From: Candidatus Desulfarcum epimagneticum
Lineage (GTDB): Bacteria > Desulfobacterota > Desulfobacteria > Desulfobacterales > CR-1
Length of the DNA stretch: 64,000 nt
Direction: 5' to 3'
NCBI GenBank assembly: GCA_900659855.1
Contig: CAACVI010000023.1
Coordinates: 62,001-126,000 of the forward strand
Shown one piece after another: positions 32,211-45,529 of the stretch. Positions within the stretch are counted from its first letter, which is position 1. Every line of letters begins with the position of its first letter. The position numbers and the translations under genes were made by a program. Below the pieces are notes generated by a model, which ran no database searches, was not told where the DNA came from, and saw only the letters and a list, made by a program, of their open reading frames with translations.

Positions 32211-33083
32211 CTATTCGTCCCATGTCACGTCCTGGACATATCCAAATACTTCAATGCCCAGCTTTTCAGCCGTTTCGCCGGCTTTTTTATCCACCATGGG
32301 GGAAATGATGAGGGCCCGGTCCGCTTTTCGCCCGTGCTTTTTTTCGTAAAAACGCTTCTTTTTCCAGAAGGTGTACACCTGGGATTTGCTTGCCGACGAT
32401 TTGATCTCGCACAGTATCAGGGTCCCGTTGTGTATGATGACATCCATTTCGATCTGATCGGGCCGGCCGAACACCACGCCGTCCGTGTCGAAATCCCAAT
32501 ATCGCTCCACTTTGACTCCGAACGATTTTTCCAGAATGGATCTCAAACCTTTTCGGAAAGCCCCCTCGGATTGAAGGCCCCATCGCGCCCCAAGCGCGCC
32601 GATGGTGGCGTCATGTTTTTTGTTCAGCGCTTCGATGGAGTCCAGCATCCTGTCGATGGCTTCCTGATTCTTCTCCCATTTTTCGTCTTGTTTTTTTCTC
32701 TCTTCCTCCCATTTCTTTTCCCATGCGGCCCACTTTTCGGCCTGCTTTTTATTTTCCTCTTCCCATCTTTTATCCTGGGCGGCCCACTTTTCGGCCTGCT
32801 TTTTATTTTCCTCTTCCCATCTTTTATCCTGGGCCTCCCATTTCTTTTCCTGGGCCTCCCATTTCTTTTCCTGGGCGTCCCATTTCTTGTCGCGTTTTTC
32901 GCGATCGCGTTTCAATTCATCCAGGATTCGGTCAATGCGGTCTTTTGTTTTTTTTCTGCCCGCGTATCGGCTTTCGGTGACTTTGACCACAAAATCACGC
33001 ACCTCGGGGTCGGTTTTGATGATGGAAGGCAGCTCGGCGATGATCATGGTTTTGATCTGTTCCCGTGTGAAGTCCTGATTCAT
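32211..33083 (-). CDS. DUF3782-like protein: coiled coil plus restriction-endonuclease-like domain
   Basis: The 290-residue protein has an N-terminal helical part (to about 60). A long Lys/Glu/Trp-rich coiled coil at about 60-150 is built of KKWEAQE-type heptads and 18-residue units. The C-terminal PD-(D/E)xK fold has MDVIIHNGTLILCEIKSS, giving the D and E-x-K catalytic signature, followed by FYEKKHGRKADRALIIS. Such DUF3782-type proteins are common in bacteria with multicellular or complex genomes, and their role is unknown; nuclease activity is inferred from the motif. The repeats in the coiled coil are near-identical at DNA level (54-bp and 21-bp periods), so length is likely to vary between strains. 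Confidence 0.8.
   Translation of the reverse strand: MNQDFTREQIKTMIIAELPSIIKTDPEVRDFVVKVTESRYAGRKKTKDRIDRILDELKRDREKRDKKWDAQEKKWEAQEKKWEAQDKRWEEENKKQAEKWAAQDKRWEEENKKQAEKWAAWEKKWEEERKKQDEKWEKNQEAIDRMLDSIEALNKKHDATIGALGARWGLQSEGAFRKGLRSILEKSFGVKVERYWDFDTDGVVFGRPDQIEMDVIIHNGTLILCEIKSSASKSQVYTFWKKKRFYEKKHGRKADRALIISPMVDKKAGETAEKLGIEVFGYVQDVTWDE
32727..32900 (-). repeat. In-frame tandem repeats in the coiled coil
   Basis: A 54-bp unit starts at 32727 and again at 32781. After it, a 21-bp unit (CTCCCATTTCTTTTCCTGGG type) is repeated about three times. Both periods are multiples of three and of the heptad or 18-residue protein repeat. Confidence 0.85.
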
Positions 33084-33317: not shown

Positions 33318-33491
33318 ATGAGCGCGCTTTCGATTTTTTTGATCCGGCTGGTCATGGGCGGGGGATTCGCCTTTCTCCTGGGACGGCTGTTTTATCCCGA
33401 CGCGAACGCGGGATACATAGCGGGTCTCGGGGCGATCCTGGTGGGACTGGCCTATTTCGCGGAATTTTTGCGAAACCGGAAAAACAGGTAG
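33318..33491 (+). CDS. Small two-helix inner-membrane protein, 57 aa
   Basis: ATG 33318 is preceded by AAAAGGAGG and encodes 57 residues: a hydrophobic segment (LSIFLIRLVMGGGFAFLLGRLFY), a short polar turn (PDANAGY), a second hydrophobic segment (IAGLGAILVGLAYFAEFL) and a basic tail (RNRKNR). It lies 134 bases before the DUF2170 gene on the same strand as the pspA cluster, so it may be a membrane anchor or partner of the PspA-like protein, comparable in position and size to small Psp membrane proteins, though not recognisably PspB or PspG. Confidence 0.7.
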   Translation: MSALSIFLIRLVMGGGFAFLLGRLFYPDANAGYIAGLGAILVGLAYFAEFLRNRKNR

Positions 33492-33625
33492 GCGGCGGGA
33501 TTAAAAAAAGCCGCCGCTTGACTCGGGGCCTTTTCATCCTTATTTTGAGGGTTGATCCCGCCCATCATCAGACAGCGGCGGGCGGTTTTTTGCCTGGAAA
33601 CCAAATTTTTGAAAAGGAGAGAGGA

Positions 33626-34024
33626 ATGTCTGAAAAATTCAACCTGGTGAAAGCGCATCTTCTGGAGATGGGGATGCCGGTGGTCATGGAGGACCCGGAC
33701 GAGGAGCTGGTGGTGGTCGAGGACGAGGAAAAAGGGATCAAGAACCTGATCATCGACTGCGAGGATTCCATCCTGATTCTGGAGCAGGTCATTATCCCGG
33801 TTCCCGATGATCCCGGGGAGCTTTTCAGAAGTCTGCTGAAGATGAACCGGCGCCTGGTGCATGGCGCCTTTGTCATGGACGGGGATGAGAAACACATTCT
33901 TTTCAGGGACACCCTTTGCCTTGAAAATCTGGACCGAAACGAGCTGGAGGGCTCCATAGACGCCCTGGGGCTGGCCATGGCCGAGCATGGGGCCGAGCTT
34001 CTGGGGTATGTCAAACAGTCATAA
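33626..34024 (+). CDS. DUF2170 family protein (YjfI-like)
   Basis: The 132-residue acidic soluble protein starts MSEKFNLVKAHLLEMGM after GAAAAGGAGAGAG. The fold resembles YbjN or type III chaperone-like alpha/beta proteins (LVVVEDEEKGIKNLIIDCEDSILILEQVIIPV, LFRSLLKMNRRLVHGAFVMD, ILFRDTLCLENLD). In E. coli, yjfI (DUF2170) immediately precedes the pspA homologue yjfJ; the same order is seen here with a 28-base gap, which supports the assignment. It probably acts as a small adaptor or chaperone for the PspA-like protein, but this is inference. Confidence 0.75.
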   Translation: MSEKFNLVKAHLLEMGMPVVMEDPDEELVVVEDEEKGIKNLIIDCEDSILILEQVIIPVPDDPGELFRSLLKMNRRLVHGAFVMDGDEKHILFRDTLCLENLDRNELEGSIDALGLAMAEHGAELLGYVKQS

Positions 34025-34052
34025 ATCATAATGGAAGGATGGAGGTTTCGCC

Positions 34053-34757
34053 ATGTCAATATTCAAACGCATTTTTAAGGTGTCCCAGTCCGAGGCCCAC
34101 GCCGTTCTGGACAAGATCGAGGATCCCATCAGAATGACCGAGCAGGGCATTCGGGACTTGAAAAAGGACCTGCAAGGGGCCATGACCAGCCTGGCCGAGG
34201 TCAAGGGAATGGCCATCAGAACCCGGAGGGACGCTGAAAACAAGAAAAAATCCGCCGCCGATTATGAGCGAAAGGCCATGACCCTTTTGCAGAAAATGCA
34301 GGACGGTCAGCTGGAGGCGGCCGAGGCCGAGCGCCTGGCCACTGAGGCCCTGAATCTGAAGGAGAAAGACGCCGCCGAGGCGCTGAGGCTCTCCCGGGAG
34401 GCGGAACAGCATGAAAAAATGTCCGCGCAGCTTCAGGCCAATGTGAACAAGATCAAATCCACGATTCAAACCTATGAAAACGATCTGCTCACCCTGAAGG
34501 CCCGGGCCCGCACCGCCTCGGCCACGAAAAAAATCAACCAGCAGATTTCCAGGATCGACTCCTCCGGGACCATATCCATGCTTGAAAAAATGCGCGCCCG
34601 GGTGGAGGAGGACGAATCCCTGGCCGCCGCCTACGGAGAAATGGCGTCCGCCGACCGCAACGTGGATGACGAGATTGAGGCGGCCCTGGGCTCCGGGTCC
34701 TCGGCTTCCTCCCCGTCCCTGGATGATCTGAAAAAGAAGATGGGAATCGGATCCTGA
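34053..34757 (+). CDS. PspA/IM30 family protein (YjfJ-like)
   Basis: The 234-residue almost wholly helical protein has the ESCRT-III-like PspA/Vipp1 pattern: N-terminal amphipathic helix MSIFKRIFKVSQSEAHAVLDKIEDP, then long coiled coil (KKKSAADYERKAMTLLQKMQDG to LTLKARARTASATKKINQQIS), and C-terminal RIDSSGTISMLEKMRARVEEDES. It ends with an acidic Ser-rich linker and LDDLKKKMG, a terminal helix seen in YjfJ-type members. These proteins polymerise on membranes to protect them under stress. It is flanked by DUF2170 and DUF4178-like genes with short gaps and faces a DUF350/spermidine-synthase-like set. Confidence 0.92.
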   Translation: MSIFKRIFKVSQSEAHAVLDKIEDPIRMTEQGIRDLKKDLQGAMTSLAEVKGMAIRTRRDAENKKKSAADYERKAMTLLQKMQDGQLEAAEAERLATEALNLKEKDAAEALRLSREAEQHEKMSAQLQANVNKIKSTIQTYENDLLTLKARARTASATKKINQQISRIDSSGTISMLEKMRARVEEDESLAAAYGEMASADRNVDDEIEAALGSGSSASSPSLDDLKKKMGIGS

Positions 34758-34780
34758 CACGCGAAAGGAGCGCCGGCGGT

Positions 34781-35320
34781 ATGGGAATCAGGGATTTTTT
34801 CAAAAAAAAGGCGCCGTCGCCGGAGCCGGTCACGGACATTCGTCTGGCCGACATGGGGCAGGGGTGGATGGTGGATTACGACATGAAAACATGGGAGGTG
34901 TCGGCCCGCCACCATTATGACTGGGGGGAGGGCGACGTCACCTATGAATGGCGGCTTGAAAGCGCGGATGAGACCGTTTACCTGTCCATGGAGTCCGATG
35001 ACGACGTCCACTGGAGCGTGAGCCGGAAAATTCCCTTCAGCCGCCTGGGGGCCGGCGTAAAAGAGGCCCTTGTCAAGACCGGGGACCCCCCGGATGAGGC
35101 GAGTCTGGACGGGACGCGCTACCGGCTCGCGGAGACCGGGGGCGGCCATTTTTACAAAGACGGCCAGGGGCCGGGGCGTCGAATGCTGTCCTGGGACTTT
35201 GATGATGACTCCGGCCGGCTTTTTCTCACCATTGAGCAGTGGGGTGAAAACGACTTCGAGGCCTCTGTGGGAAAGGCGGAGGAGGAGTGGCGCTTTTCCA
35301 ATATCCTTCCCGGGGCTTAG
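34781..35320 (+). CDS. DUF4178-like protein of the PspA cluster
   Basis: The 179-residue soluble protein starts MGIRDFFKKK 23 bases after the pspA-like gene. It reads as a beta-rich domain with ADMGQGWMVDYDMKTWEVSARHHYDW, VTYEWRLESADETVYLSMESDDD, and a second half GTRYRLAETGGGHFY...LSWDFDDDSGRLFLTIEQWGENDFEASVG. The pattern resembles DUF4178, a family repeatedly found next to PspA, DUF350 and spermidine-synthase-like proteins; DUF2491 (YjfK-like) is the alternative given its position. Its 3' end is four bases from that of the convergent spermidine-synthase-like gene. Confidence 0.65.
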   Translation: MGIRDFFKKKAPSPEPVTDIRLADMGQGWMVDYDMKTWEVSARHHYDWGEGDVTYEWRLESADETVYLSMESDDDVHWSVSRKIPFSRLGAGVKEALVKTGDPPDEASLDGTRYRLAETGGGHFYKDGQGPGRRMLSWDFDDDSGRLFLTIEQWGENDFEASVGKAEEEWRFSNILPGA

Positions 35321-35324
35321 CCCC

Positions 35325-36878
35325 TTAGCTCCCCGGACCCCATGAGCCGCTTAAGTAATACCCGTGGAGGGCCGGGCGGAGCTTTGTGTTGACCCGGATG
35401 CTTTCTTTTTCTTTTTTCCCCACCGACCCTTTTCCGAAATGGGTCATGGACATCATGGCGTCCGGGTTTAAGAATTTTAAATCCAAATCGCTGAAATCAA
35501 GGGCCGGCGCCCTTTTTTTCAGCGCCCCGGCGCCGGGGTCTCCGGCCCGGGCCCCCAGAACCCATCCCCATTCTCCCATGGTGGGAATGTGGTTGTGATA
35601 GGCCAGGACGCTGAATCCCGCCTCCCGGATGGTTTTTTTCACGCACAGAAACGCTTTTTCGGAAAAATAGGGGCTGGTGGCCTGGGTGACAAACACGCCC
35701 CCCCGGACGAGACGCCGTTTGATCTCGTGATAAAACCCCAGGGAGTACAGGCGGGCCAGGTCCAGGGTGTCGGGATCGGGAAGGTCCGCCACAATGACCC
35801 CGTATAAATTCGCGTCCTCCCTCAAAAAGGCGGCCGCGTCCCGGTTGATCACACGGACCCGGGGGTCGTTTAAGGCCCCCCGGTTTAAGCTGAGCAAAAC
35901 CGGGTGGGTTTTCGCCAGCCGGGTCATGGCCGGGTCCAGGTCCACGACGGTCAAGGACCGGACATCCGGGTATTTCAAAATTTCCCGGGCGGCCAGGCCG
36001 TCTCCTCCCCCCAGGATCAGAACCGAGCGTCTGTTCGCCGCGAGTTTCAAAGCCGGGTGAACCAGGGGCTCGTGATACTTTTCCTCATCAAAGCTGCTGA
36101 ACTGGGTCTGGCCGTTGATGAACAGCCAGTGAAAGTCTTTCCACCGGGTGAGGACGATTTTTTGAAACACCGTCTGCTCGGCGTAAACGATCCGGTCTTT
36201 GTACTGTTTCTGCTCCCCGAAAAGAACGATGGGCTTTGCCATGACCGCCAGGGCGATCAAATAAAAAAAACACAGGCCGAAAAGCGAGAGAATCAGCTTT
36301 TTTTTTTCAATAAGGCGGTAAAAAAACGCCATCACCAGGCCGGCCACGGCGAAATTCACGGCGCCCAGGACGATGGGGGTATAGGTCAGGCCCAGGCGGG
36401 GAAGGGCCACAAAGGCGAAAAAAATCCCGCCGACAAGCGCGCCGTAGTAGTCCTTTTCCATAATGGAGGCGATGTTTTCCCTCAACTCTTCATAGGACTG
36501 GTTGAGCCGGGTCACCAAAGGAATTTCAAACCCGATCAGGATTCCGACGCATATGGCGAGCGCGTATATCAGCATGTCCGCGCAGCGGATGAAAAAGGAG
36601 ACGCCGTACACCAGGGTCGTGGAAGACGCGCAAAGGACGGACAGGCCGATTTCCACGATGAAAAAGGTTTCGATGAGATGGGAGCCGACGCGCCTGCTCA
36701 GACGGCTGCCGACTCCCATGGAAAACAGCATCAGCGACATGATGATGGTCCACTGGAACACCGCGTTTCCGATGAGATAGGCGGCCAGGGTGGACAGCGC
36801 GTACTCGGCCACGATTCCGGCGCAGCCGGTGGCCAGGATGGATGTTTTCAGGACCAGACCGGCGCGGGACGCCTTCAT
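35325..36878 (-). CDS. Membrane-embedded spermidine-synthase-like methyltransferase-fold protein
   Basis: The 517-residue protein has about seven hydrophobic segments in residues 1-215 (for example ILATGCAGIVAEYALSTLAAYLIGNAVFQWT), followed by a soluble spermidine-synthase-like domain: INGQTQFSSFDEEKYHEPLVHPAL, VLILGGGDGLAAREILKY, TVVDLDPAM, VIVADLPDPDTLDLARLYS. The GGGDG loop and DLDP are the nucleotide and amine-binding elements of aminopropyltransferases. This architecture recurs next to DUF350 and PspA genes. The start is ATG 36878, which overlaps the DUF350 stop (TATGA). Whether it makes polyamines or modifies lipids or peptides is unknown. Confidence 0.85.
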   Translation of the reverse strand: MKASRAGLVLKTSILATGCAGIVAEYALSTLAAYLIGNAVFQWTIIMSLMLFSMGVGSRLSRRVGSHLIETFFIVEIGLSVLCASSTTLVYGVSFFIRCADMLIYALAICVGILIGFEIPLVTRLNQSYEELRENIASIMEKDYYGALVGGIFFAFVALPRLGLTYTPIVLGAVNFAVAGLVMAFFYRLIEKKKLILSLFGLCFFYLIALAVMAKPIVLFGEQKQYKDRIVYAEQTVFQKIVLTRWKDFHWLFINGQTQFSSFDEEKYHEPLVHPALKLAANRRSVLILGGGDGLAAREILKYPDVRSLTVVDLDPAMTRLAKTHPVLLSLNRGALNDPRVRVINRDAAAFLREDANLYGVIVADLPDPDTLDLARLYSLGFYHEIKRRLVRGGVFVTQATSPYFSEKAFLCVKKTIREAGFSVLAYHNHIPTMGEWGWVLGARAGDPGAGALKKRAPALDFSDLDLKFLNPDAMMSMTHFGKGSVGKKEKESIRVNTKLRPALHGYYLSGSWGPGS

Positions 36879-37723
36879 ACGCACCAGTAGATGATCAGCG
36901 CCCCGGCGATGTACGAAAAGGCCTCGATGTAGGCGGCCCCGACATTCGGCTTTTCCTGCCCGGCGATTTCGTGGGAAAGCTTGACGGCGGGCAGAAGAAT
37001 TTTATCGGTCAAAAGACGGATCAGGGGAAGCAGGACCAGTCCCAGGACCGCGTAAAACAGGTAGTCCGGAAGGCTCTGGCCGAACGACTCGAAATCGCTT
37101 TCCCCGGCCAGACCCACCACCATTCCCATGGCGATCAGCGCCCCGGCGAAGCTCACCCCGGCCGCCACGTTGTCTTTTTCGATCTCATCATGCAGGTCGT
37201 AGGGGGTGATGAGGTTGTAGATTTTTCCCGCCAGAATGAGCATGATCTGCCCGATGGCCCAGAACGCCATGACCGTCCAGATATTTCCCCCCTGTCCCTG
37301 GACGGCGCCGAATATAATAAAGCCCGAGGCCACGCTCACCCCGGCGGCCACGCTTCCGGTCCCGGCGTTTCGGTCCCGTATCAGCTCTTCGGTCATGCAG
37401 AATTTGTGCAGAATCAGCTTGTCGCACACAAACCCGGACAGGTTTAAAAGGACGATGCCCAAAGGCCCATAGACGGCCAGATCGGCCAGGTCTTCCCAGA
37501 CGCCGCCGTCGCCGGGGCCCGCCAGGGTTCCGCCGATGGCCAGGATCAGGCCCATGTAGTAGCCCGCCAGGGCCAGGGCCAGCGCGTCGTTGTCTTTTTC
37601 CACCAGCTCGACGTTTAAATTGAATTTCCGATGCAGCAGGTCATAGACGACCTTTCCGATGAAAAATATGACGTAAAAGGCCGCGACCAGGATCAGGCCG
37701 GATATTAAGATGTCCAGTTTCAT
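36875..37723 (-). CDS. DUF350 inner-membrane protein, duplicated (YjfL-like)
   Basis: The 282-residue protein has about eight hydrophobic helices arranged as two DUF350 units. Each contains a conserved polar stretch: NVELVEKDNDALALALAGYYMGLILAIGGTL in the first and DEIEKDNVAAGVSFAGALIAMGMVVGLAG in the second, and each ends near LPDYLFYAVLGLVLLPLIRLLTDK-type sequence. E. coli yjfL also lies beside the pspA homologue yjfJ. The stop overlaps the start of the spermidine-synthase-like gene. Function is unknown; coupling suggests both act together in the inner membrane. Confidence 0.85.
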   Translation of the reverse strand: MKLDILISGLILVAAFYVIFFIGKVVYDLLHRKFNLNVELVEKDNDALALALAGYYMGLILAIGGTLAGPGDGGVWEDLADLAVYGPLGIVLLNLSGFVCDKLILHKFCMTEELIRDRNAGTGSVAAGVSVASGFIIFGAVQGQGGNIWTVMAFWAIGQIMLILAGKIYNLITPYDLHDEIEKDNVAAGVSFAGALIAMGMVVGLAGESDFESFGQSLPDYLFYAVLGLVLLPLIRLLTDKILLPAVKLSHEIAGQEKPNVGAAYIEAFSYIAGALIIYWCV

Positions 37724-37726
37724 CTT

Positions 37727-38413
37727 TTATTTCCCCCCTATGCCGCTTCTGCCGGAAAAACCGGCCCGGGTTCGCCCGATCCGCCGGTTGAATTTGTCCC
37801 CGAAGGAGGCCCGGGACGCCTTTCTTCTTTGGGCGGCCCTTTGGTAAAAATTCGGATTCCGGCGCCGGGTCAAAGAGCCGTCACGGCCGTATTCTTTGTT
37901 GGGGCCGTAATACGGAACCCCCCGGGCGCGGCCGGCGGAGTAGGCCGCGTAGTGATTTCGGTAGATGGGGCCGGCGCCCAGAAGATCTCCCAGGAGTCTG
38001 TACTGGCCGTAAAACACCCAGAACGAGCTTCCCGAGGAATCGGAGCGCCACCGGCCGTACCGGGGATTGTCCACATACTCGTATCCCGGGGGGCCCGCGG
38101 CGGCGCTTTCCCGGCCGTCCTGCTTGGTCCAGATGGTCATTCCCAGCAAAGACCTGTTCTGTTCGTAGGTTTTTTTTGGAACCCGGGCCCAGTCCATGGA
38201 CACAGGCCCCTGTTCCGTGATGACTTTGTATTTATGCCAGTGTGTCTCAAAAATATCGCCCTCGGTTTTCATGTCGTCCAGAACGATTGAATAGGAGGGC
38301 AGGCCCCGGAGGGTTTTCCGGGTCTCGTCCAGGGCCGATGGCGGGTCCCCGCATCCGGCGAGCCAAAAAAAAGGAATCATGACGGCAAAAACCGTCCAGT
38401 TCATTCCGCGCAT
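37727..38413 (-). CDS. Lipoprotein of the PspA/DUF350 cluster
   Basis: The 228-residue protein has a signal peptide and a clear lipobox (FFWLAGC), so it is probably lipid-anchored in the periplasm. ATG 38413 follows AAAGGAGACG at good spacing. The mature part begins DPPSALDETRKTLRGLPSYSIVLDDMKTEG and has WHKYKVITEQG, aromatic-rich central repeats (PPGYEYVDNPRYGRWR, WVFYGQYRLLGDLLG) and a highly basic tail full of Arg, Gly and Ser (GDKFNRRIGRTRAGFSGRSG). It starts the minus-strand set and ends three bases before DUF350. Related lipoproteins accompany DUF350 in other genomes; the function is unknown. Confidence 0.75.
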   Translation of the reverse strand: MRGMNWTVFAVMIPFFWLAGCGDPPSALDETRKTLRGLPSYSIVLDDMKTEGDIFETHWHKYKVITEQGPVSMDWARVPKKTYEQNRSLLGMTIWTKQDGRESAAAGPPGYEYVDNPRYGRWRSDSSGSSFWVFYGQYRLLGDLLGAGPIYRNHYAAYSAGRARGVPYYGPNKEYGRDGSLTRRRNPNFYQRAAQRRKASRASFGDKFNRRIGRTRAGFSGRSGIGGK

Positions 38414-38897
38414 AATGGGGGCGTCTCCTTTCCCGGTCATGTGGATTCAAACAAACCGCCGGCCGCGCCCGACCGGCGTTACATGTGAAAATATTTCATT
38501 ATTCTCACTTTTTATAAAATACCACGCCCGTTCGTCTCTGTCAATTGAATAAGCGCCTCGCGGGCCGGGGGGGGCGATTTCGGACCCGAAAGCCCGGAAA
38601 ACCTTTCAGGCGTTTCGCCGGGCGTCATGTTTGAAGAAAAAGTCGAATTTATATACAATGCACGTTCAAAATATTTTTTTATGAAAAAAATGATCTGAAT
38701 GTGTCATTTTGTATTTCCAGAAACGCCAAAAAAAACCATTTTATGATAAAAAAATAAAAAAAAGTTATTGCATTTTTTTTTCGGGTATGTCATAAAGTTC
38801 GGGTTGTGGCGCTCAAGAGTTTACAAAATGTCTCATTTTAGACTTTTTATTTATAAAAAATTTTATTCGATTAAACAGGAAAACAAGGATTAAAACT
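38414..38897. promoter_or_regulatory. AT-rich divergent control region
   Basis: This 484-base stretch lies between the divergent lipoprotein gene and the first helix-turn-helix gene. From about 38640 it becomes strongly AT-rich, with long A and T runs. GTGTCATTTTG near 38700 and TGTCTCATTTTAGACTTTTT near 38829 share a TGTC-x-CATTTT-like core and could be operator half-sites. AAACAGGAAAACAAGGA precedes the start at 38898. No gene is seen. Confidence 0.45.
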
Positions 38898-39614
38898 ATG
38901 AAAAAAACGGAAAATGTTAAGAAAAATAAAAATGTCCCGGATGACATCAGCGAGCTTTACCGGGCGGCCTTGAAGCACTACATCGAAATGTACAATAAGA
39001 AAAAGTTTCGGTCCGATTTATTTAAAAAACTGAATTTAAAGTATACAAATATATCTTTCAGTAACTTAAACAATTTTATAAATGAAAAAACGCCTTTATC
39101 TGAAAAAAAACGGATTCAAATTGCTTATTTTCTTGGATTCAGGTATGAGGACTTTATTTATTTGGGAAGAAAGCTGGTTTATTTGAAAGAAAATAACATA
39201 ATTCCGCAGGAGGCGGAATCCGAGGATTTTTATTTAAATCGCGCAACGGGCAAAATATTTAAAGAAATACAGGAAAAACACTCTCTCACCGACCGGGATG
39301 TGGCCGGCTACCTCAGCGTCGATTTAATTGAGTATCAATTTAAGAAAAAAGGCCTGATTCCTTTTAGCTTTGATGAAATCGCCATTGTTTTTAAAAAGAC
39401 CGGCCGAAGTCTTCCGGATATGAACGAGTTCATGGAAAAGCCCCCGGAAAAGAAAAAAATTATTTCCCAAATCGTGGATGAGGTGAAAAAGATGTCCCCT
39501 GAAGACCGGGAAGTGATAAAAAAGCTCCTTGAAACCAGTGATGAAATCGGCGATAAGTTTGTCGAGAAGATGAAACGGGTCAAAAAAATGATCAAAACCG
39601 ATGATAATGTGTAA
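38898..39614 (+). CDS. Helix-turn-helix regulator, AT-rich paralogue 1
   Basis: The 238-residue protein appears to hold two XRE-like helical DNA-binding units. In residues about 15-90, SFSNLNNFINEKTPLSEKKRIQIAYFLGF has the spacing of helices 3-5 of a Cro/repressor fold. In 115-175, FKEIQEKHSLTDRDVAGYLSVDLIEYQF, then PFSFDEIAIVFKKTGRSL, looks like a second. The C-terminal MSPEDREVIKKLLE is a common closing helix of such regulators. Base composition is far more AT-rich than most of the window, suggesting transfer or relaxed selection. The next gene is a clear paralogue. The role is inferred to be regulation of the adjacent exported-protein locus or of itself. Confidence 0.65.
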   Translation: MKKTENVKKNKNVPDDISELYRAALKHYIEMYNKKKFRSDLFKKLNLKYTNISFSNLNNFINEKTPLSEKKRIQIAYFLGFRYEDFIYLGRKLVYLKENNIIPQEAESEDFYLNRATGKIFKEIQEKHSLTDRDVAGYLSVDLIEYQFKKKGLIPFSFDEIAIVFKKTGRSLPDMNEFMEKPPEKKKIISQIVDEVKKMSPEDREVIKKLLETSDEIGDKFVEKMKRVKKMIKTDDNV

Positions 39615-39754: not shown

Positions 39755-40384
39755 GTGATGAAGACCGACAATGAAAACCATGTCGAGGATATCAGCGAGC
39801 TGTTTCGACTGGCGCTGAGGCATTATATCCATATGCAGACGGAAAAAAAATTCAAGTCCAACCTGGTCAAAGGCCTCAACGATGAAGGGGTGAAAATATC
39901 TTTCAGCAATTTCAGTAATTTTTTAAACAAAAAAACGTCATTGTCGGAAAAGAAAAGAGCGCGGATCGCCCATCACCTGGGATTTAAGTACGAAGAGTTT
40001 ATTTTGCTGGGGCGAAGACTGGTGGAGTTGAAAGACGCCATGCCGATGGAGAAAATCGGGACCGAGGCCCTGTACCTGAATCGCTCCACGGTGGAAATAT
40101 TCAAGGAGATTCAAAAACGCTACAAACTCTCCGGAAGAGACATCTCCAACTTTTTAAACATGGATTTCATTGATTACCAGTTCAGATTAAGGAACCTGAT
40201 TCCCTTTAATTTTGATGAAATCGCCACTGTGTTTGAAAAAGTGGGCAAACGATACCCGGATTTCAACAACCCCATCAAGAAATCCGAGGCCCCTCAAAAA
40301 AGCGTCTCCGATGTGGCGGAAGATATCAAAAAAATGTCCCCCCTGGAAAAAGAAGTGGTGAAATCCCTGATTGAAAATGAATGA
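39755..40384 (+). CDS. Helix-turn-helix regulator, paralogue 2
   Basis: The 209-residue paralogue of the preceding gene shares DISELxRxALxHYI, ISFSNxxNFxNxKTxLSEKKR, HLGFKYEEFILLGRRLVELK, LNRSTVEIFKEIQ, FDEIATVFEKVGKRYPD and KKMSPLEKEVVKSLIE. It is less AT-rich than paralogue 1, so the two have diverged in composition as well as sequence. The start at 39755 (or 39758) follows AAAGGGG. It converges on the exported helical-repeat protein gene at 40435 with a 50-base gap. No recombinase, lysis or other phage gene accompanies the pair, so a prophage repressor pair is not supported. Confidence 0.65.
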   Translation: MMKTDNENHVEDISELFRLALRHYIHMQTEKKFKSNLVKGLNDEGVKISFSNFSNFLNKKTSLSEKKRARIAHHLGFKYEEFILLGRRLVELKDAMPMEKIGTEALYLNRSTVEIFKEIQKRYKLSGRDISNFLNMDFIDYQFRLRNLIPFNFDEIATVFEKVGKRYPDFNNPIKKSEAPQKSVSDVAEDIKKMSPLEKEVVKSLIENE

Positions 40385-41218: not shown

Positions 41219-44200
41219 TTATTTCACACGGAAATAACTGATTCCCCCGGTTTTGTCATTTCCTTTATAATTTTGGTCCATGGCGGTGACGACCTTTTCG
41301 GATTCGTCGGGATCGCACATAAATTCATACACATATCCGTCTTTTGTCTTTTCTTTCCGGATCAGCCTCAACGAATCGGACCATTTGACATCCGTCACAT
41401 CCACATCGTCCGTGATCCGAAACGCCACTCGCCTTTGCCATCCTCTTCCCCGCTCCGTCCCGGAATCAGACCAGCGGCCGTCTTCATACACCCAGTTGTC
41501 ATGGGCAAACGCCTTTTTTGAAGATATCAGCTCGATTGACGGGGAGGCGTCCAGCAGAAAAACCGCGCCGTCCTTTTCCGCCTGGTAAACATGAAAGCGT
41601 GTTAAATATCCACTTTCAGATGGCGCCACCACCTTGTGGCCGTAATCCAGGGGACTGTCTTTTTCAAGATGGGCCCAGGCGTTCACAGGGCGGGCTCCGG
41701 CCCAGGAAAAGACATGGCATATGGCCTTCCACCGCTCGGCCTCATCAAAAAAATCAGGGTCGGGATTGGAAAAGGCCTCTTTAAAAATTCCATGTGAGAG
41801 ACAGACTATGGCCGCGCCGGTTGTGATCAGCCGTCCATTGTCATTCTTCTCAAAAAGAACCAGCGCGTAATCCCCCGACCGGCTTTCCACCTTGATGACC
41901 CGTCCGACGTTTTCAGGCATGAACGCGCTTTTATAAGGCTCAAGCTCAAGCGCGCTCATAAAGTCCCTGTTTTTCATCAGCGCCTCTTTGATTTCATCGT
42001 CGGCGGATTCGGATGAGGAACTTTCATCGGCCCAGAAATCCTTATACTGAAAATCCGTTCCCGATCTTTCAAGCCCCCGGGTCAAATCCGGGTTGGGCTC
42101 CGGAGTTTTTGCGGCCGCATGGACCTCCCCTTCGGTTTCAGGGGGCTCCACCGCGGCGCCGTACATGCCCGCTCCTTCCAGACCCTGGGCGATGGTACGC
42201 TCCGGGGTTTTTGCGGACATATGGACCCTCTTCTGTTCGGTTGTAGGGAAGCCGTTCATCACGTAGCCGTACATGCGCTCTCCTTCCAGCCCCAGGGCAA
42301 TGGGACGAAAATATTTTGAGTTCCATTCCGAGGCCTGAATGTATTTTTCGCTCCCCATGCCGCCAGCGGCGGGATCGCTCACCACAAATCCGTTTAGTTC
42401 ACGATACACGGATGGCCTATCAAACATAAAGCGGGTGGAATGGCCCACGATGGTCATCCAGTGGCGGTAGTCGCTGTCGGCCCCGCCCCCCCCGGCCCGG
42501 TGGGGATTGGAAGAAATCGTCACAGCGACGGGAGCGGGGGCTATGTCAGACGGATCCCCTTCCAGCCACCAAGCGATCTGGAAGTTCGCAAAGTCTTGAT
42601 TCATCGCATAATGCAGTCTATCAGCAGTGTTTTTATAATTGTATCTCGTTGACGGATGCAGGTAATGGTTCAGGGCCGCCTTCATTTCCGAGAGTGAGAG
42701 AACCCCGTCGTCAGTTGCGTCCCTGTCGCTCATCAATTGCTCCTGACGGTCGGCGTCGTCGTTTTGCGCCAGATATCCGGACAGCAGGTGAGAAAGGATG
42801 GTGTCGGCCACCGCCGCGCCGCTGTACGCGGCGTTTCCGTCTTTGGACATGGTTTGAGAAACGCCCTGTATCATAAGACCGTAGCCCACCGTCACGGAAA
42901 TAGACACAGTCGTATTATCGGAATGGGAACCATTTGTATCCTTCGCTTGGTATGTAAACGTGTCCGATCCGATGTAACCGTTGCTCGTGGTGTAAGAAAA
43001 TGACCCGTCGTTTTCGAGCTGAAGGGTTCCGTGAGATGGACTCTCGATCAAAACGGCTTCGAGCGTGTCTCTATCCGGGTCCGTGTCATTGATTAATACA
43101 CCCGGCGCGGCCACTGACAGGTCAACGCGATAAGGAGCACTAATGCCCTGACCAAAGCTGTACGAATCATTTTGCCCTGCGGGCGGGTCATTCACTGCGG
43201 TCACCTGGATGGACGCCGAGGCTGTATGGGAGCTGAAGGCGGCCCCGCCGCCATTTGTGCTCGCGGCGGCCCGGCTTCCCGAAGAGGCGCCGTCGCTTTT
43301 GTCCCAGGCTCTGAAAGAAAACGCGGCCCGGCCGTTCCAGTTTGCGTCGGGGACAAATCGGATATGATCGTTCTGGTCAAGCAGCGCGGCATCGGCATCG
43401 GCCGTCGCGGCGCCGAAATTAATCCATGTGGCCCCCGAATCCGTTGAGTATTGCCAGTCGCCGTGGGCGTTGTCAACTTCTGTCACTGCGATGGCTTCCC
43501 GGGCGTCTCCGTCCGGGTCCGTGATGGATCCGTTCGCCACAATCTCCGACACCAGGTTTCCGCTGTTTGAGGACCCCGGGTCTTCGGATATCGAGGACAA
43601 AGCATGGGACTGCGCTGTGTTAAGAACGGGCGCCCTGTTTATCATGGCCACTGTAAAAGTAAATGGTGTACGCTGACTCCCCCACCCGTCCAATATTGAA
43701 TTCTGGGGCGGGGTCACTGTAAGGCTTGTTAAATGGCTAGCATGCTCAAGACCTGTGAAATCCTCGATCTGGAAACTTCTTACATCCAGGGTTGTAAGAC
43801 GACTTTCCAGTTCAGTTCGGGATATTGGGCCGGTTCGATTCAACTCCCCGTTTATGGCTTCAAGAAGATCCGGGTCGGCAAAAACCACCCGGGGACTGAT
43901 GGACACAGTGGCTTCGTCGGAATACATTGTTCCGTCATAGGCCGTGTATTCGAACGAGTCGGTCCCGGTGAAGCCATCTCCCGGCGTGTAATCAAATGAG
44001 CCGTCGGCGTTCAATGTCACCCGGCCATTTTGAGCAGCGGAGGGCTCGACCGCCGTGAATGGATCGTCGGAATTCATTCTCGAGTCATTGGCCAGAACGC
44101 CATCGAGCGCCGTTATCGACAACGCCCCCGCCGCTGCGTCGGAACAGTAATAATCGTTTGCGGCCGTGGGCCTTTGCCTGGCTTCGACATTGACGGAGAC

Positions 44201-45529
44201 GGTTATGCTCCCCTCCGTATAACTGAAAGAATCGGTCCCCGTATATCCGTCGAAGGTGGTATAGCCCAGAGAATTTTTACCATCATCAATCTCCGCCTCT
44301 CCATGACTCGGTTTGGTTTTAATGTCGACGGAGGCTCTGTCATGAACCGCGATCTCAACCCGGACGTCCGTTTCAGCGATTATATTCAGAGTCACATCGG
44401 TCAAAGAGGAAAGCCCGGCCAGTTTCCACACCTCCGAAGTTTGAGACAGATTTATCGTAAGACTTTGCAAATTCACCGCATGCTCAAGACCTGTGAAATC
44501 CGTGATCCCGGAGCCGCTTAAATCCAGATCAGTGATTTTTTCCAGCTCCCTTCGGGTCAGCGCGTCCATGCCTCGTTTGCCCAACCTGCCGTTTATCAAT
44601 GAGCGAAGATTTTGGTCATTTAAAACCACCCGGGAACCCGGGGAGGGCGATCCGCCGCTTTCCACTATGCTCATGGCCTGAAGCGCCAGCGATGTCAGGT
44701 AAACGTTGCCCCATTCCCCGTCGGCTTCCCGGGTCGAATGAATCTGCCCCAAAAGCTCCAGGCCCCTCGGGCATGCCGGATCGCTTTCCAGAAAAGCCAG
44801 GGCCGCGCGCGCCTTGATCATGGCCGGAGAGGCGTCGGTCACATCATGGGAAAGATCCGAAGTGGCGTCTGAAATAATTTGCGAAAGCCCAGGGTCGCCG
44901 GCTCTCAAAGGAATCAGCGCCCGTATCACCCGGGCTGTGGAAATCGCGTCCGAGCTTGCGTCTTCTTTTGAGGCAAAAGACATCCCCCATCCCTTTTCGC
45001 TTCCGGTCAGCCGGGAGGACTTCAGGTACTCCGTCGCTTTTTGAAGCGCCGCAGGATGATCGGCGAGCGCGGACATGACAATGGCGGTGTCCATCGGGGA
45101 AGAGTAATAGCCCGGATTGGTTCCCCACCCAAGGCCGTCGGATGACGCGTCGTCGCCCTGGACGGCGACAAGCCCGGCTATGTCCTCGTCCACATCGTCG
45201 CCGTGGGGAACCAGGGCCGCGATTCGCCTGGCCCTGGAATCGTGGTTCAAAGGATTGTGGTTTTCAAGCCAGGTGATTCCGTTGTAATAGGACGAGTTCA
45301 TATGAACGCTGTCCCTCAGCGCCTTCACCGCTTCCGAGGTGTAAACAAATCGGATCGCCCCGTCGTCTCCCCAGCTGCCGTCGCGGTTCTGCTGGTTTTC
45401 AAGCCAGGTCGCCGCGTTTTCGACAGAGGTGGCGTATGTTCCGGCCAGGGCGTTGACGGATGTGAGAAAAATAAGGGTCAGAAGCGCGAGCGCGGCCGCG
45501 CGTATCCGGACAATGTTTTTTCCAGTCAT
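41219..45529 (-). CDS. Giant exported multidomain protein (toroid, leucine-rich, cadherin-like, C39-like), 1436 aa
   Basis: The protein has a signal peptide (AAALALLTLIFLTSVNALA). Residues about 30-290 form a terpenoid-cyclase-like alpha/alpha toroid (AATWLENQQNRDGSWGDDG repeated as QW-like units). Residues 310-400 have a leucine-rich segment (LTRRELEKITDLDLSGSGITDFTGLEH), repeated near 560-600. Between these and 880 lie several Big/cadherin-like tandem domains (GYTGTDSFSYTEG, ANDYYCSDAAAGALS, DTDPDRDTLEA). An EF-hand-like loop DRDATDDGVLSL lies near 940. Residues 890-1060 resemble a C39-type papain fold with HWMTIVGHS and VSDP, but Ser stands where Cys is expected. The C-terminal 370 residues are unrecognised, with repeats of GLEGxxMYG. 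The Asp-Ala-Ser-x-Asp peptide recurs here and in the RHS protein. It probably acts at the cell surface or is secreted. Confidence 0.8.
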   Translation of the reverse strand: MTGKNIVRIRAAALALLTLIFLTSVNALAGTYATSVENAATWLENQQNRDGSWGDDGAIRFVYTSEAVKALRDSVHMNSSYYNGITWLENHNPLNHDSRARRIAALVPHGDDVDEDIAGLVAVQGDDASSDGLGWGTNPGYYSSPMDTAIVMSALADHPAALQKATEYLKSSRLTGSEKGWGMSFASKEDASSDAISTARVIRALIPLRAGDPGLSQIISDATSDLSHDVTDASPAMIKARAALAFLESDPACPRGLELLGQIHSTREADGEWGNVYLTSLALQAMSIVESGGSPSPGSRVVLNDQNLRSLINGRLGKRGMDALTRRELEKITDLDLSGSGITDFTGLEHAVNLQSLTINLSQTSEVWKLAGLSSLTDVTLNIIAETDVRVEIAVHDRASVDIKTKPSHGEAEIDDGKNSLGYTTFDGYTGTDSFSYTEGSITVSVNVEARQRPTAANDYYCSDAAAGALSITALDGVLANDSRMNSDDPFTAVEPSAAQNGRVTLNADGSFDYTPGDGFTGTDSFEYTAYDGTMYSDEATVSISPRVVFADPDLLEAINGELNRTGPISRTELESRLTTLDVRSFQIEDFTGLEHASHLTSLTVTPPQNSILDGWGSQRTPFTFTVAMINRAPVLNTAQSHALSSISEDPGSSNSGNLVSEIVANGSITDPDGDAREAIAVTEVDNAHGDWQYSTDSGATWINFGAATADADAALLDQNDHIRFVPDANWNGRAAFSFRAWDKSDGASSGSRAAASTNGGGAAFSSHTASASIQVTAVNDPPAGQNDSYSFGQGISAPYRVDLSVAAPGVLINDTDPDRDTLEAVLIESPSHGTLQLENDGSFSYTTSNGYIGSDTFTYQAKDTNGSHSDNTTVSISVTVGYGLMIQGVSQTMSKDGNAAYSGAAVADTILSHLLSGYLAQNDDADRQEQLMSDRDATDDGVLSLSEMKAALNHYLHPSTRYNYKNTADRLHYAMNQDFANFQIAWWLEGDPSDIAPAPVAVTISSNPHRAGGGGADSDYRHWMTIVGHSTRFMFDRPSVYRELNGFVVSDPAAGGMGSEKYIQASEWNSKYFRPIALGLEGERMYGYVMNGFPTTEQKRVHMSAKTPERTIAQGLEGAGMYGAAVEPPETEGEVHAAAKTPEPNPDLTRGLERSGTDFQYKDFWADESSSSESADDEIKEALMKNRDFMSALELEPYKSAFMPENVGRVIKVESRSGDYALVLFEKNDNGRLITTGAAIVCLSHGIFKEAFSNPDPDFFDEAERWKAICHVFSWAGARPVNAWAHLEKDSPLDYGHKVVAPSESGYLTRFHVYQAEKDGAVFLLDASPSIELISSKKAFAHDNWVYEDGRWSDSGTERGRGWQRRVAFRITDDVDVTDVKWSDSLRLIRKEKTKDGYVYEFMCDPDESEKVVTAMDQNYKGNDKTGGISYFRVK

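Follow-up and report, generated by a model that had tools for sequence, protein, structure and literature searches.

A fusion of a major facilitator superfamily (MFS) protein with a spermidine synthase-like enzyme, accompanied by an S-adenosylmethionine (AdoMet) decarboxylase and with DUF350 nearby, was reportedly assigned a polyamine-independent role by Li et al. in 2019; its substrate is said to be unknown, and the fusion reportedly gave no spermidine and did not complement a spermidine synthase mutant. In E. coli, YjfM and YgiB, encoded beside annotated peptide-spermidine ligases, carry Arg/Ser/Gly-rich tails ending in Gly-Gly, and going by the title of a 2023 paper by Pederick et al. these ligases are reportedly YgiC and YjfC. 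Closest to the present subject are CesT/Tir-PspA operons that Ravi et al. 2024 (mSystems, PMC11237479) place in a second group; these encode a spermidine synthase fused to an N-terminal domain of seven transmembrane helices (7TM), an 8TM DUF350 protein, a DUF4178 protein and a novel lipoprotein, and either polyamine sensing or aminopropylation of other substrates was put forward for them. That paper also cites Li et al. 2019. Here we analyse such a gene set within a stretch of 64,000 nucleotides (the window) of contig CAACVI010000023.1 from Candidatus Desulfarcum epimagneticum, whose genome is 99.7% complete. Its CesT-PspA-DUF4178 and synthase-DUF350-lipoprotein genes are the published cluster in a slightly different layout, so the cluster itself is not new; the findings new here are a C-terminal lysine tail, its pairing with the membrane synthase across unrelated carrier proteins, and the frequent absence of AdoMet decarboxylase. 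No printed statement of this lysine tail or of lysine aminopropylation in these systems was recognised in a literature search that left most subscription papers out of reach.

The lysine tail and its pairing with the membrane synthase

Three genes on the reverse strand of the window encode an envelope lipoprotein (37727-38440), a double DUF350 membrane protein of the YjfL type (36875-37723; two matched stretches, 1.5e-54) and a membrane spermidine synthase-like enzyme, putatively a polyamine aminopropyltransferase (35325-36884), the start of whose gene shares 10 bases with the DUF350 gene. The lipoprotein, proposed below as the substrate, has a lipobox (LAGC) and no Pfam match, hence none that would tie it to the name 'Ctha_1186' of the published cluster, and upstream of its gene a possible sigma-70-like promoter is seen as a consensus match (TTGACA, 17, TATTTT; 38516-38544, reverse strand). 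Its last 16 codons (37730-37777, reverse strand), which precede the stop codon, encode the conserved basic tail GRTRAGFSGRSGIGGK, rich in Arg, Ser and Gly and with Lys as its last residue. Of 291 genomes of the class, 92 contain a DUF350 match, and among the wider stretches fetched around 40 class DUF350 loci, several of them cut by contig ends, the conserved arrangement is lipoprotein-DUF350-synthase. These three genes form the core of the system. PspA, on which a preliminary description of the locus had centred it, is not part of this core, being found near the DUF350 module in 5 of these 40 loci and in the window, and outside the class near the membrane synthase in only 12 of 78 loci. The survey of conserved neighbourhoods proposed in that description bears out the association of lipoprotein, DUF350 and synthase, and not that of PspA or of a small protein encoded at 33318.

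In each of the 30 lipoprotein orthologs that were aligned, a stretch rich in Arg, Ser and Gly leads up to a final Gly-Lys, and the distant lipoproteins of loci L065, L066, L068, L069 and L070 end in the same way, that of L067 being an exception; in L064, where DUF350 has no synthase nearby, no neighbor with a Gly-Lys tail is present. Orthologs of the lipoprotein were detected in 87 of the 291 class genomes, 86 of which also carry the membrane synthase, the remaining one (G140) being a fragmented assembly. When contigs of 84,980 species were scanned with a synthase alignment of 27 sequences (A1) and the best 80 loci were kept, many of these loci proved to have, immediately 5' of the synthase gene, a gene whose product ends in a similar way. 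A tail was then counted where a frame of at least 45 residues ended in Lys preceded by Gly or His, had at least 11 of its last 20 residues in GSRTNYHK with G+S+R amounting to at least 7, and lay on the same strand as the synthase with its midpoint within 3.5 kb. In a first set of 114 loci, from which one duplicate and one scan locus with an incomplete synthase had been dropped, such a tail was found in 89 (88/113 when one internal duplicate is left out), namely in 54 of the 78 scan loci and in 35 of the 36 class loci, the window's among them, a count that is not a blind test since the definition was set after inspection of the first loci. Counted by single frames, 90 of 1730 nearby ones on the same strand qualified, whereas none of the 2152 on the opposite strand did; farther than 4.5 kb away, 5 of 4026 qualified. 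With the definition unchanged, a further 60 class loci, reduced to 59 by one that had no full synthase, gave a tail in 53 (51/57 without two duplicates of first-set loci), with 53 of 873 nearby frames on the same strand, 0 of 1272 on the opposite strand and 0 of 820 far away; in four of the six loci that had no tail, the upstream sequence is shorter than 2.3 kb. No tail match came from thirty short-flanked decarboxylase loci (L071-L100).

The preference for lysine is also apparent when tails are chosen by composition with their last two residues ignored. Nearby tails so chosen end in Lys in 65 of 129 cases in the first set and in 51 of 71 in the further set, versus 3/69 and 1/25 on the opposite strand and 5/103 and 1/17 far from the synthase. 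After removal of the last 25 residues, the 142 carriers fall into 18 groups unrelated in sequence, nine of which have two members or more; at least 3 of the 18 are doubtful, and the first-set hits in L047, L199 and L214 look false. The smallest carrier has 49 residues and 37 have fewer than 100, many of these consisting of an anchor and the tail; a hydrophobic segment is present in 125 carriers and a lipobox-like motif in 78. They come from Deltaproteobacteria, Nitrospinaceae, Binatia, Bacteroidetes, Gammaproteobacteria, Sulfurovum and Helicobacteraceae, and from Bacillota, Acidobacteria, Gastranaerophilales and the myxobacteria Corallococcus and Pyxidicoccus.

The synthase, its donor and the proposed modification

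The synthase (519 residues) scores 569.7 bits against the NCBIfam model PRK03612, above the cut-off of 472, and comprises seven predicted transmembrane helices (residues 2-228) followed by an aminopropyltransferase domain (about 229-494). Across 34 aligned class synthases, 13 of them from genomes with AdoMet decarboxylase, 15 from genomes where none was detected and 6 distant, the residues Q261, D266, E267, Y270, H271, E272 and D295 of the GGGDG motif are invariant, as are D317, D349, D367, D370, Y380, Q401 and W441. The active-site residues are mostly invariant as well in 40 synthases of wider origin (alignment A2), and we take GGGDG, DxxDP and the other synthase residues to have catalytic roles. 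A structure predicted by AlphaFold2 from A2 (predicted local distance difference test score of 92.4) has helices at residues 2-37, 41-63, 70-96, 102-128, 134-187 and 195-228, the fifth of which, 54 residues long, contains two hydrophobic segments split by a proline-bearing stretch, so that seven crossings are read from it. The best Foldseek matches of this model are SpeE structures, over about 260-290 of the 519 residues, and the sequence comparison with SpeE involves the catalytic domain only. The score above the NCBIfam cut-off, the SpeE-like predicted fold and the catalytic residues point to a polyamine aminopropyltransferase of the PRK03612 type. Averaged over the 40 synthases, the N-terminus and the loops 60-75, 124-146 and 188-200 are enriched in Lys and Arg, which are scarcer in the other loops; this positive-inside profile, with the N-terminus inside and seven helices, leads us to predict that the catalytic domain lies outside the inner membrane, on the same side as the lipoprotein.

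AdoMet decarboxylase (PF02675) was found in 118 of the 291 class genomes and the membrane synthase, above its curated cut-off, in 91, or 96 when five sub-threshold fragments are included. A decarboxylase is present in 44 of the 55 synthase genomes that are at least 95% complete, and of the 44 genomes whose DUF350 is close (E < 1e-80), 22 have none; outside the class it is encoded within 6 kb of the synthase in 33 of 78 loci. The genome of the window gave no match to PF02675 or to a profile (A3) built from 26 decarboxylases linked to such loci; the class 2 model PF01536 did not match it either, but the control for this model matched nowhere. An alternative donor enzyme was also sought among conserved neighbors, and the recurrent neighbors searched with Pfam proved unrelated (Tex, type II secretion E/F/G, outer-membrane efflux, TelA).

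We hypothesize that the lipoprotein-DUF350-synthase triad is a protein-modification unit, in which the synthase, anchored by its seven helices and with its catalytic domain at the outer face of the inner membrane, would attach an aminopropyl group at the epsilon-amine of the Lys that ends the partner tail. Since the lysine side chain corresponds to the aminobutyl half of spermidine, Gly-Lys bearing an aminopropyl group would resemble protein-bound spermidine, and the polycationic tail might then act on the anionic membrane or wall, while the CesT-PspA-DUF4178 unit, where present, might cope with the same stress at the membrane. That the synthase recurs in distant bacteria beside tail proteins unrelated to one another suggests that it decorates the lysine, and to aminopropylation of the terminal Lys giving a spermidine-like end we assign a probability of about 0.48, close to even. 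The wider proposal, that external membrane synthases carry out a widespread and unrecognised aminopropylation of C-terminal lysines in anchored proteins sharing only the Arg/Ser/Gly tail, converging on the Gly-Gly and spermidine route suggested for E. coli, is advanced tentatively, with the odds leaning somewhat against it.

Several observations weigh against lysine aminopropylation. Rather than serving as a substrate, the tail may have a role in binding or sorting. An external catalytic domain, itself a predicted feature, would call for export of the donor. Of the 96 synthase genomes, 66 have AdoMet decarboxylase and 30, the window's included, have no PF02675 match and so no recognised source of the donor; profile A3 found no match in these 30 genomes and recovered 3 of 3 controls, all of which had contributed to the profile or share a genome with a contributor or its near relative. 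The further set is not a phylogenetically independent test, most of its carriers being orthologs within the same class. In addition, a tail as defined is missing from 25 of the 114 loci of the first set and from 6 of the 59 of the further set, among them beta-proteobacterial loci that show none even on wider inspection; L160, L186, L195 and L215 contain Lys-ending tails slightly below the thresholds.

The tail protein and the synthase might also cooperate while the lysine stays unmodified, the tail, which is strongly basic and of low complexity, binding anionic lipid, wall or the synthase itself, and the enzyme making a small polyamine or another aminopropylated metabolite for envelope protection. 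A pure charge role needs no terminal Lys, yet the nearby composition-matched tails favor one over those of the opposite strand, and Li et al. 2019 reportedly found neither spermidine nor complementation of a spermidine synthase mutant. AdoMet decarboxylase is often encoded nearby, and the proposals of Ravi et al. 2024 (PMC11237479) agree with this view; on balance we regard this explanation as unlikely. The 30 synthase genomes with no detected decarboxylase make it conceivable that, at least there, AdoMet itself is the donor and the tail lysine receives a 3-amino-3-carboxypropyl or methyl group, all the more as the aligned members from such genomes keep both the active-site residues and the tail. 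That very likeness, however, extends to both groups of synthases, the 13 with and the 15 without decarboxylase differing strongly at a single alignment column (284), and the decarboxylase and synthase genes stand side by side in many loci outside the class, which makes a change of donor improbable.

In Braun's lipoprotein, an L,D-transpeptidase joins the C-terminal Lys to peptidoglycan. The lysine studied here could likewise be a site of wall attachment, with the synthase incidental or competing for the same amine, and the many carriers that combine a lipobox-like motif or a hydrophobic segment with a C-terminal Lys would fit such a role. The tail nevertheless tracks the synthase, as the 86 of 87 lipoprotein genomes indicate, the pairing is found in Bacillota too, and no L,D-transpeptidase appears among the Pfam-searched recurrent neighbors of the triad, a search that was not extended genome-wide; wall attachment is accordingly considered very improbable.

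The PspA unit, the small protein and flanking genes

All seven genes listed in the preliminary description are present at, or very near, the positions it gave, and its view of an envelope locus holds, so that its interpretation stands in part; the lysine tail does not figure in it. Convergent with the triad, and separated from it by 4 bases between stop codons, the forward strand encodes a CesT/Tir-like chaperone (33626-34024; CesT_Tir_1, PF22550, 6.7e-47), a PspA/IM30-family membrane-remodelling protein (34053-34757; PspA_IM30, 3.9e-40, under the PspA equivalog cut-off) and a DUF4178 protein (34781-35320; Pfam, 9.8e-26). The chaperone had been labelled DUF2170, the YjfI family, a model that does not occur among its Pfam matches up to E 0.1. 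Among the class loci fetched, this convergent unit lies beside the triad only in L033, L034, L036 and the window, and PspA is found near DUF350 in two more class loci, L064 and L066. In L033, L034 and L036 a TrkA-N/RCK potassium channel adjoins the CesT gene, with AdoMet decarboxylase beyond the channel; the flanks of the window locus contain neither, the decarboxylase being likewise undetected in its genome. A reading of the locus as a defence system was set aside, as the PADLOC matches were weak or generic.

The membrane protein of 57 residues encoded upstream of the chaperone (33318-33491, forward strand) had been put forward as an overlooked partner of the locus. The gene is real and conserved, being found in 227 of 291 genomes of the order (E <= 0.01), and its partnership is ruled out by its linkage to selB in relatives. 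A survey covered the locus of the window and 38 loci of 35 relatives, 39 in all, with three genomes represented twice; the gene lies directly upstream of selB in all 38, and the genome of the window is the sole exception, with selB on another contig. Because it is linked to selB elsewhere, we conclude that the small protein is not part of the lipoprotein/PspA system; it is a candidate overlooked gene of the selenocysteine system. The conserved two-helix protein immediately 5' of selB in L102-L140 has about 57-60 residues, and that of the window has no NCBIfam match. Between the 57-residue gene and the CesT gene the terminator scan listed no terminator, and the hairpins that fold there have undistinctive z-scores (-1.16, -0.11 and -1.80).

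Farther out, two tandem paralogs on the forward strand (38898-39614 and 39755-40384), 52% identical over 204 residues and with no above-threshold Pfam match, adjoin the lipoprotein gene in a stretch of low G+C (0.42) and are possibly acquired regulators. On the reverse strand, a DUF3782/PDDEXK_10 protein (32211-33083) has a coiled coil in which nearly identical KKWEAQ/KRWEEENKKQAEKWA repeats follow one another over a long stretch, and an open frame of 1436 residues near the locus (41219-45529) contains repeated cadherin-like stretches of the form 'NDSYSF...DTDPD'.

Comparison with known systems

The synthase has the architecture reported for the fusion of Li et al. 2019; here, in contrast, a lysine-tailed partner is proposed as acceptor, and many of the genomes with the fusion have no detected AdoMet decarboxylase. 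Many genomes annotate this membrane family as spermidine synthase; what it acts on does not seem to have been settled, judging by what is said of that fusion and by Ravi et al. 2024. With the group described there the window shares adjacent CesT/Tir and PspA genes, DUF4178, the 7TM-spermidine synthase fusion, two DUF350 stretches and a lipoprotein. Unlike the operon of six to seven genes seen in the accessible text of that paper, the genes of the window, as those of L033, L034 and L036, form two convergent units; the window has no adjacent AdoMet decarboxylase, and the lysine tail goes unmentioned in that text. The recurring lysine-tailed partner makes the question of the substrate testable. 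If lysine aminopropylation is correct, many genes annotated as spermidine synthase would give a false picture of polyamine metabolism, and PspA-type envelope stress systems would be linked to polyamines through protein modification and not through free polyamine synthesis.

A polyamine-derived group is placed on the epsilon-amine of a lysine in the hypusination of eIF5A, which differs in its enzyme, in the internal position of the lysine and in its cytosolic target. The same process is mentioned in PMC12270671. The parallel between this locus and the E. coli yjfI-L set noted in the preliminary description is supported, and an aminopropyltransferase-like membrane enzyme takes the place held in E. 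coli by the ATP-grasp protein YjfC; PF03738 (GSP_synth ATP-grasp) matched none of 241 class genomes, the window's included, while the E. coli and Caulobacter controls were matched. The likeness to yjfIJKLMC and ygiBC lies in PspA and DUF350, for the yjf set, and in an Arg/Ser/Gly-tailed partner encoded beside a polyamine-attaching enzyme. The E. coli systems combine a Gly-Gly end with an ATP-grasp ligase, whereas the present one combines a Gly-Lys end with an aminopropyltransferase-like membrane enzyme, and yet, by analogy, spermidine ligated to a terminal Gly and a terminal Lys carrying an aminopropyl group would give nearly the same chemical end.

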